NCBI GenBank assembly: GCA_012516125.1
Contig: JAAYXB010000076.1
Coordinates: 1-53,850, forward strand
DNA: 53,850 nt
From: Bacillota bacterium
GTDB taxonomy: Bacteria; Bacillota; SHA-98; UBA4971
Direction of reading: 5' to 3'
Both the position numbers and the translations under genes were made by a program. Below, in pieces: positions 1,145 through 8,470 of this stretch. How positions within the stretch are numbered: the first letter of the stretch is position 1; the number at the start of each line of letters is the position of its first letter. The notes under the pieces are model-generated. The model did no database searches. It saw only the letters and a list, made by a program, of their open reading frames with translations, and was not told the DNA's origin.

Positions 1145-1183
1145 GGCAGAGGGCGCCTGCCTCACCGCGACGCGCCCTCTGCC
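1145..1183 (-). terminator. 12-bp hairpin over the end of the riboswitch-controlled gene
   Basis: GGCAGAGGGCGC at 1145-1156 pairs perfectly with GCGCCCTCTGCC at 1172-1183. The stop codon of the gene at 1162-1650 lies in the 15-base loop. No T-tract follows on the minus strand, so it may terminate weakly or mark the end of the mRNA. Confidence 0.45.
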
Positions 1184-1650
1184 TGCTTTTGTTCCAGGCG
1201 CCAGAGTTCGCCGTTCACATGCTCTTCAATGGAAAGGTAGATATCCCATGCCTCCGGCGAGACCAATTTCTTAAGCTCGTCCCGCAGCCTGCGGACAGCC
1301 TGCCGGCACTGCTGCCGGGCAAGCATGTCGCGGAGATAGTCCACTTTCGCACGCTGATGCCTCAAGGTCTGCACTTCCTCGAACGTGGCCGCGCCGGACC
1401 GGAAGCACATCATCCGTTCCTCGATCATGTCGCATATCGCGTCAAGCTCTATCCCCGCTCCCTCGGCGCCCTTGAGGGCTTTCTCCTGGGCGCGGTTCAG
1501 TGCCTGGGCGATGTCATCTTCCCCTTCGGAAAGACAATCGAACGACGCGACGAGTGCAGCGCACACGCTGTCGGTGAACGTCTCAAGGTCGTCGTGTTCG
1601 ACTCCCACACCCGCCAGTGCTTGCATTACCACCCGCTTCAGGCGGTCCAT
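1162..1650 (-). CDS. unknown helical protein downstream of a SAM-I riboswitch
   Basis: A 162-residue protein of no family I recognise. It is soluble and predicted to be mostly helical, with several Cys residues (for example the DSVCAALVASFDCLSEG region and RQQCRQAVRRL) and no signal peptide. I chose ATG 1650 because GAGAGGAGG lies 7 bases upstream; the open frame continues upstream only into the riboswitch terminator region. The transcript starts at a near-consensus promoter at 1885-1914 and passes through a SAM-I riboswitch and an intrinsic terminator. Expression should therefore fall when S-adenosylmethionine is abundant, which would suggest a link to methionine, cysteine or SAM metabolism. 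That link is inferred from regulation only; the protein itself gives no functional motif. Confidence 0.75.
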   Translation of the reverse strand: MDRLKRVVMQALAGVGVEHDDLETFTDSVCAALVASFDCLSEGEDDIAQALNRAQEKALKGAEGAGIELDAICDMIEERMMCFRSGAATFEEVQTLRHQRAKVDYLRDMLARQQCRQAVRRLRDELKKLVSPEAWDIYLSIEEHVNGELWRLEQKQAEGASR

Positions 1651-1695
1651 ACCGTGCCTCCTCTCTCGCGTACCCCGCCCTGCCAAACACGAAAA

Positions 1696-1720
1696 GCCCT
1701 CTTCCGCCGAGGAAGAGGGC
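1696..1720 (-). terminator. intrinsic terminator of the SAM-I riboswitch
   Basis: On the minus strand GCCCTCTTCC and GGAAGAGGGC form a perfect 10-bp stem around a 5-base loop, followed by TTTTCG. It lies 24 bases after the aptamer and 46 bases before the start codon of the controlled gene, as expected for the OFF-switch expression platform of an S-box leader. Confidence 0.88.
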
Positions 1721-1743
1721 ACACAAAACAACCGGGTATTGCC

Positions 1744-1870
1744 TCTCATCTCTCAGCGGAAAACCTCCGCTGCAGGATTTGGCACCTTACCCGCGCCCGC
1801 GTCACCAGACGCGTCTTGGGCAGGTTGCCGGGCTTCATCGGGCCAGTCCCTCCGCCGCTCTTGATGAGAT
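1744..1870 (-). promoter_or_regulatory. SAM-I (S-box) riboswitch aptamer
   Basis: The minus strand carries the conserved S-box core. P1 is formed by ATCTCATC at the 5' end and GATGAGA at the 3' end. Within it come GGAGGGACTGGCCC, GATGAAGCCCGGCAACC, then GGTGCCAAATCCTGC and a closing AGAGATGAGA. These are the invariant blocks of the SAM-I family. With SAM bound, the family stabilises P1 and lets a downstream terminator form, which is present at 1696-1720. A 99-residue minus-strand open frame through this stretch is only the RNA read as protein. Confidence 0.96.
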
Positions 1871-1884
1871 ATTTTCCAATTGTT

Positions 1885-1914
1885 ATTATAACCAGCCCCT
1901 TCCTGATCTGTCAA
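1885..1914 (-). promoter_or_regulatory. sigma-A-type promoter of the riboswitch transcript
   Basis: The minus strand shows TTGACA (1914-1909) and TATAAT (1890-1885), both perfect consensus, separated by 18 bases. Transcription would start near 1878, a few bases before the 5' strand of riboswitch P1. Confidence 0.9.
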
Positions 1915-6258: not shown

Positions 6259-7236
6259 ATGGGTGAAAAGCTCTTGCTCCAGGTCGAGGATTTACACACA
6301 TACTTCTACACGCTCCAGGGCGTGATCAAGGCGATCGACGGCGTCAACCTGTGCGTGAGGGAAGGTGAGATCCTTGGCCTCGTGGGGGAGAGCGGGTGCG
6401 GTAAGTCGGTGACGGCTCTCAGCATCCTGGGCCTGGTGCCGAGCCCTCCCGGCAGGGTGGAAGGAGGTCGGATCCTGTTTGAAGGGGAGGACCTCCTTGC
6501 GAAAACCCCGGCGGAGATGAGGAGCATCAGGGGTAGCAGGATAGCCATGATATTCCAGGAGCCGATGAGCTCCCTAAACCCCGTCTTTCGCATCGGCGAC
6601 CAAATGATCGAGGTCATCAAGCTGCACAAGAAGGTGTCTACAGGCAGCGCGCGCATCCAGGCGCTTGAGATGCTGCACGAGGTCAGGATGCCGGACCCAG
6701 AGGCCGTGCTGGCCAAGTACCCCTTCCAGCTGAGCGGCGGTATGCTGCAGCGCGTCATGATCGCCATTGCTCTTTCATGCGAGCCCTCATTGCTGCTCGC
6801 CGACGAGCCAACGACTGCCCTCGATGTTACAGTACAGGCGCAGATCCTGAACCTCATGAAAGACCTGATACGCAAGCGAAACGCAGCTGTTCTCCTGATA
6901 ACGCATGCGTTAGGCGTTGTGGCGCAGACCTGCGACGCGGTGTCGGTGATGTATGCGGGTACCGTAGTTGAATCGGGCTCCGTCGAAAGTATTTTCCGCA
7001 GCCCGGCGCACCCATACACTCGCGGCCTGATGGAGTGCATTCCCGATCCGTCTCGTAAGTCAGATAAGCTGAAGATCATACCTGGGACTGTTCCCGATCC
7101 TGTGAACCCTCCGCCCGGGTGCAGGTTCCATCCAAGGTGCTACAAGGCGACCGCAACCTGTTCCCAGATCAGGCCTGACCCTGTGAGAGTCGGACCGGGC
7201 CACGTGGTGTGCTGTCATTATCCGGAGGAAGGATGA
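6259..7236 (+). CDS. ABC transporter ATP-binding protein, DppD type
   Basis: A 325-residue ATPase of the DppD/OppD group. Walker A is GESGCGKS near residue 44; the Q-loop is in [12 protein letters not shown]; the signature is LSGGMLQR; Walker B is [12 protein letters not shown]; the switch His is in [10 protein letters not shown]. The signature GGM replaces the usual GGQ or GGMRQR form, a common variant in this subgroup. The C-terminal oligopeptide-transporter domain contains CRFHPRC and further Cys, the pattern that binds an iron-sulfur cluster in some DppD homologues. The stop overlaps the next start (ATGA). Confidence 0.95.
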
Positions 7237-8233: not shown

Positions 8234-8470
8234 AGTCGTCCATGGCGGCCAGCTGCCGCCAGCTGCCGCCGCCGTCGAGAGGATGAAAGCGGTAACCGAC
8301 GCCTGTTTTCGACGTAGTCGTCCATGCCCCGCGTTGCGCGCCACCACCGAAAGGCAAGGATGGCAACCGCCACCTGTTTTCGGGGTAGCCGCCCATGCCG
8401 ACTTCGTCGGCACCAGCGAAGGATGAAAACGCCCGGCCCATTTTCGTAGTAGACAGAAATCCGGAGTTCG
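8234..8470 (+). repeat. tandem ~61-82-bp structured repeat units, right copy
   Basis: Units start at 8234, 8316 and 8387 (AGTCGTCCATG, AGTCGTCCATGCC, AGCCGCCCATGCC), with a decayed fourth from 8448. Each has a variable insert, then a CCGAAAGG-type block, GG-AACCG and TTTTCGGGGTAG. The outer arms co-vary: GTCGA/TCGAC in the first, CCGAA/TTCGG in the second and GCGAA/TTCGT in the third. The third also holds TGCCGAC-TTC-GTCGGCA. These units belong to the family at 2417-2562 on the other side of the transporter operon. Confidence 0.75.

Follow-up and report, generated by a model that had tools for sequence, protein, structure and literature searches.

A canonical SAM-I riboswitch whose leader lineage appears to have changed its target gene in uncultured Bacillota

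SAM-I (S-box) leaders that terminate transcription are common in Firmicutes. When a gene without a known role stands behind an S-box, association alone usually serves to place it in methionine, cysteine or SAM metabolism (PMC3766115). SreA of Listeria monocytogenes in turn is an S-box RNA whose terminated form acts on prfA in trans (PMC7221448). Here we describe an S-box leader in a stretch of 53,850 bp (hereafter the window), which is the whole contig C62 of a 3.24 Mb draft genome (G000), position 1 being a contig end. The leader and the genes behind it comprise the following features:

1914-1885, minus strand: promoter TTGACA-18-TATAAT, sigma-70-type, consensus match 12/12
1870-1743, minus strand: full SAM-I (S-box) aptamer, Rfam RF00162, 90.2 bits, E 3e-20
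1720-1696, minus strand: intrinsic terminator, a hairpin followed by TTTT
1650-1162, minus strand: ORF1 (P0001), 162 codons, protein predicted all-helical, ATG at 1650 behind an AGGAGG Shine-Dalgarno
1010-567, minus strand: ORF2, conserved neighbour, 147 aa, with a signal-peptide-like N terminus and weak PDZ similarity
494-12, minus strand: ORF3, conserved neighbour, 149-160 aa

The aptamer covers the RF00162 model end to end (1-108), its score lies far above the gathering score of 44.4 bits, and it is the sole Rfam match at gathering score in the 53.85 kb scanned. The terminator hairpin was computed at -20.1 kcal/mol (z -4.15; equally stable shuffles 0/200), terminator values ranging from -18.9 to -20.1 kcal/mol, and is separated from the ATG of ORF1 by only about 45 nt. 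A preliminary description of this DNA had claimed a complete switch of consensus promoter, S-box aptamer and terminator and had proposed a search with RF00162; both the full-length covariance-model match and the remaining parts bear it out. Judged by its sequence, the element is a canonical SAM-I riboswitch, and the switch itself is ordinary. The genome holds one further S-box, on contig C53 ahead of metK.

In silico, the terminator 5' arm has a second pairing partner in the P1 3' strand together with a few bases directly downstream; the resulting antiterminator of -14.6 to -16.3 kcal/mol takes up six of the eight nucleotides of this strand. This alternative pairing is common to the leaders of G000 and of its congeners G001, G002 and G004. 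Thus the P1-linked antiterminator and the terminator that characterize a SAM-I expression platform are both present, and mutually exclusive P1/antiterminator and terminator pairing is supported in silico. The minimum-energy folds of the G002 and G004 leaders differ from the ligand-bound fold; riboswitches computed without ligand are often not found in that fold. Read together, these elements have the layout of a standard OFF switch that works by transcription termination. With SAM bound, P1 would form, the terminator at 1720-1696 would follow and ORF1 would be off, while at low SAM the P1 3' strand would pair with the terminator 5' arm and RNA polymerase would read through into ORF1. We infer in the same way that the window's switch is transcribed and responds to SAM. 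An antisense action was considered and rejected, as the divergent ABC-transporter genes (2603 onward) point away and no plausible gene lies opposite.

The program-called ORF is longer (195 aa from 1749), and the conserved start backed by a Shine-Dalgarno is that at 1650. The 162-residue protein was initially described as lacking a recognised domain, which holds: it reaches the cut-off of no Pfam or NCBIfam family. Its AF2 model is all-helical (mean pLDDT 85.6, pTM 0.59), and in a Foldseek search of the PDB with this model no match had an E below 0.001. Several weaker resemblances were rejected: VIA-align matches to CorA, katanin and MIT domains (Z about 10) fall in the noise range for helical bundles, an ATP-cone similarity (E 0.005) stays below the Pfam cut-off, and a weak match on contig C40 of the same genome (E 0.1), which overlaps a ribonucleotide-reductase-like gene, was left out of the count. 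The idea that ORF1 is a phage or plasmid gene was rejected too: phage and plasmid records gave no match, and viral contigs gave one partial, weak match. Between G000 and G002, ORF1 shares 81.5% amino acid identity with dN 0.11 and dS 0.72 (dN/dS about 0.15), and purifying selection acts on it. Since metK of the same pair has a dS of 0.75, close to that of ORF1, the divergence of the unit between these two genomes fits vertical descent. Two frameshifts interrupt the G004 copy of ORF1, which is out of frame in that assembly; the gene may be dispensable there, or these may be draft-assembly errors.

Leader, ORF1, ORF2 and ORF3 are found together in the congeners G002 (C20) and G004 (C104, JACIXY010000048.1). 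The terminator has the same sequence in all three genomes; the window promoter is identical in G004 and 80% identical in G002, and promoter, aptamer and ribosome-binding region of G000 and G002 share 80-88% identity. Within the aptamer, the G002 inner stem carries a compensatory change from GGG/CCC to GAG/CUC. ORF2 is confined to these three genomes among 101. ORF3 occurs in the same three, and G008 carries a piece of its 3' end next to an integrase. There, on C63 (L127, 4776-5162), a lipoprotein-like gene has a C-terminal end that is the 3' end of ORF3 (93% nucleotide identity to the window), near three tRNA genes and a tyrosine integrase related to that of G002; a tyrosine integrase and three tRNA genes are also found near the unit in G002. 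Behind ORF1, the candidate terminator hairpin is no stabler than shuffles (z 0.20) and was not accepted as a terminator. Repeats were observed as well. A dispersed repeat around CCATCGAAAGGGTGAAAATGGCAACCG lies at 2445-2543 and 8314-8429 of the window and has many similar copies in the genome and its relatives. Inverted repeats TGTCTCATT...AATGAGACA, looking like insertion-sequence remnants, occur in three genomes near the unit or the leader (L046, 9190-9235; L047, 5620-5790; L063, 490-525), and G004 C104 (L047) contains CRISPR-like direct repeats GTTGCACCGCTTGACTCGATGACGAGAGGACTGAAAG at 6435-6610 with spacers of about 36 nt.

The leader is not tied to ORF1. In G001, a member of the same genus, a leader on C36 with 84% identity to that of the window over 180 nt, terminator included, precedes a 123-aa protein that differs from ORF1 and that we call ORF-X. 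In the sister genus, too, S-boxes precede ORF-X (G007, G010, G012). In G009 C159 (L073, 428 onward) its first 23 codons run in frame into a peroxiredoxin gene, a fusion that places peroxiredoxin behind a SAM-I switch; in G010 C48 (L075) the two are separate genes. Outside the window's family, all ten full ORF-X matches in one class of 73 genomes (G176, G271, G419, G421, G422, G423, G427, G449 and G450, the last with two copies) lie directly behind an S-box; an eleventh match, a short fragment, is not included in these ten. Altogether, an S-box lies directly upstream of ORF-X at 15 loci in four families, and homologues without S-box were found in G047, G092 (twice), G127, G160, G210, G257 and G324. 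Most ORF-X copies are open, with dN < dS where measured; the gene behind the leader has in-frame stops in G419 and G422 and is short in G176. A terminator is present in 18/18 leaders compared, and a ribosome-binding site and start follow nearly all of them. The protein of about 120 aa belongs to no Pfam family and finds nothing convincing in NCBIfam. Its model is all-helical and confident (pLDDT 94, pTM 0.77), without a significant PDB match (Foldseek, none with E below 0.001), and ORF-X was not found in viral contigs and plasmids. The idea that ORF1 is a divergent ORF-X was rejected after an hhalign profile comparison (probability 0.5%). ORF-X is absent from all three carriers of ORF1. We regard ORF-X, rather than ORF1, as the better candidate for an S-box target not described before.

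Built from about 250 nt per sequence, a tree of 43 S-box leaders places the three ORF1 leaders inside those of ORF-X, together with G001 (local support 0.978), within a wider ORF-X leader group supported at 0.972. This group includes an S-box leader on G016 C11 (L063, 222-400). It is complete, belongs to the same lineage and has a terminator-like hairpin, with no recognisable gene behind; an integrase fragment lies about 700 nt beyond it. The ORF-X leaders of f56/f145 and of G449/G450b sit elsewhere, and thus the tree gives no single origin for all ORF-X leaders. From the leader tree and the gene distribution, we infer a change of target: the ORF1 leader would descend from one that controlled ORF-X, ORF-X would have been lost in the branch of G000, G002 and G004, and ORF1 would have come to stand behind the switch. 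This order of events is the simplest account, while leaders may also have been shared through recombination; arrival of ORF1 by a mobile-element route is possible. Overall, we give a probability of about 0.7 to the reading that a canonical, SAM-terminated riboswitch controls ORF1 through a leader inherited from the ORF-X lineage. The preliminary description had mentioned loss of an original target and capture of a new gene as its second option, and this option is now the better supported one, since in G001, as in further genera and families, leaders of this lineage precede ORF-X. The gene displaced here would be ORF-X, which is no known methionine-pathway gene. ORF1 itself is probably a small helical protein with a protein-binding or regulatory role, produced at low SAM or methionine; this is a guess from its fold class and from divergent relatives that adjoin XRE, MerR or receiver-domain genes.

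Alternatively, ORF1 could have belonged to the S-box regulon for a long time and serve methionine, cysteine or SAM metabolism. In favour of this, leader and ORF1 have stayed together in three species and purifying selection acts on ORF1. However, when 398 genomes from the phylum were searched with an ORF1 profile, 11 divergent relatives came up (G013, G014, G015, G016, G092, G127, G162, G234, G257, G280, G324), and none of them has an S-box nearby (0/11, flanks up to 1.5 kb); ORF1 is absent from G001, G003 and G005. An S-box thus precedes ORF1 in 3/3 cases within its own genus and in 0/11 outside, and the association does not recur across genera. Where the preliminary description had asked whether S-box leaders recur upstream of homologues, the answer is positive for two congeners and negative for the 11 divergent relatives. 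Homologues lacking the leader were what it had named as speaking against its proposal of a new methionine-regulon member, and they leave that proposal weak for ORF1. In addition, ORF1 matches no enzyme or transporter family, the sister lineages of its leader carry ORF-X, and several of its relatives adjoin XRE, MerR and receiver-domain genes or an AMIN-type amidase-like gene (gene names read from the sequences), none of which is a methionine gene. Consequently, we consider regulon membership unlikely.

A second alternative is that the leader itself is the selected product and acts in trans as a SAM-terminated small RNA, the gene behind it being of minor importance. SreA provides a precedent (PMC7221448), and the leader lineage is kept before targets as different as ORF-X, ORF1, the ORF-X-peroxiredoxin fusion of G009 and, on G016 C11, no recognisable gene. 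The downstream genes that look broken, by frameshifts in G004 or by in-frame stops in G419 and G422, and the short one in G176, would fit as well. In contrast, ORF-X is found behind an S-box in four families, mostly open and with dN < dS where measured, ORF1 has a dN/dS of about 0.15, and every leader has a strong terminator that is followed in nearly all cases by a ribosome-binding site and start. A trans-acting role seems quite improbable. That a decayed or displaced S-box lies beside an independently transcribed ORF1 by chance, as the broken ORF1 of G004 and a G016 homologue without leader but with a promoter-like site close to its start might hint, is very hard to believe with promoter, aptamer, terminator and ribosome-binding site intact and conserved at a dS of about 0.7 and the terminator so close to the ATG.

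We return to the change of target, which, together with ORF-X as a recurrent S-box target, makes this locus of interest rather than the switch. One might tentatively go further, at somewhat less than even odds: a SAM-I lineage in uncultured Bacillota would serve the undescribed ORF-X family in several families and would have been passed to unrelated genes (ORF1, and peroxiredoxin by in-frame fusion), so that low SAM would trigger a response outside methionine metabolism. A single leader lineage that can be traced across a change of target calls for caution in assigning S-box genes by association. The leader that appears to have passed from ORF-X to ORF1 offers an example in which to study the gain of new genes by riboswitches. 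ORF-X, preceded by an S-box at 15 loci across four families and lacking a Pfam or NCBIfam family, stands as a concrete candidate for a SAM-responsive function not described before.

Compared with known systems, the window leader resembles SAM-I leaders (RF00162) in its complete aptamer, its overlapping P1, antiterminator and terminator and its own promoter, while the gene it precedes is, unlike the usual targets, no known methionine, cysteine or SAM gene and of no annotated family. With SreA (PMC7221448) it would share a role of an S-box RNA beyond methionine genes; unlike SreA, the window leader, known from its sequence, gives no sign of trans action. The ORF-X leaders, for which no public family name was found, are of the same lineage and have the same order of promoter, S-box, terminator, Shine-Dalgarno and small ORF, but ORF1 has no detectable relationship to ORF-X (hhalign 0.5%). 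Finally, the S-box leaders of metK, metY-like, metNIQ and metH-like genes in the same class belong to the same RNA family and occur in the same or related genomes, whereas the window leader groups in the tree with those of ORF-X.
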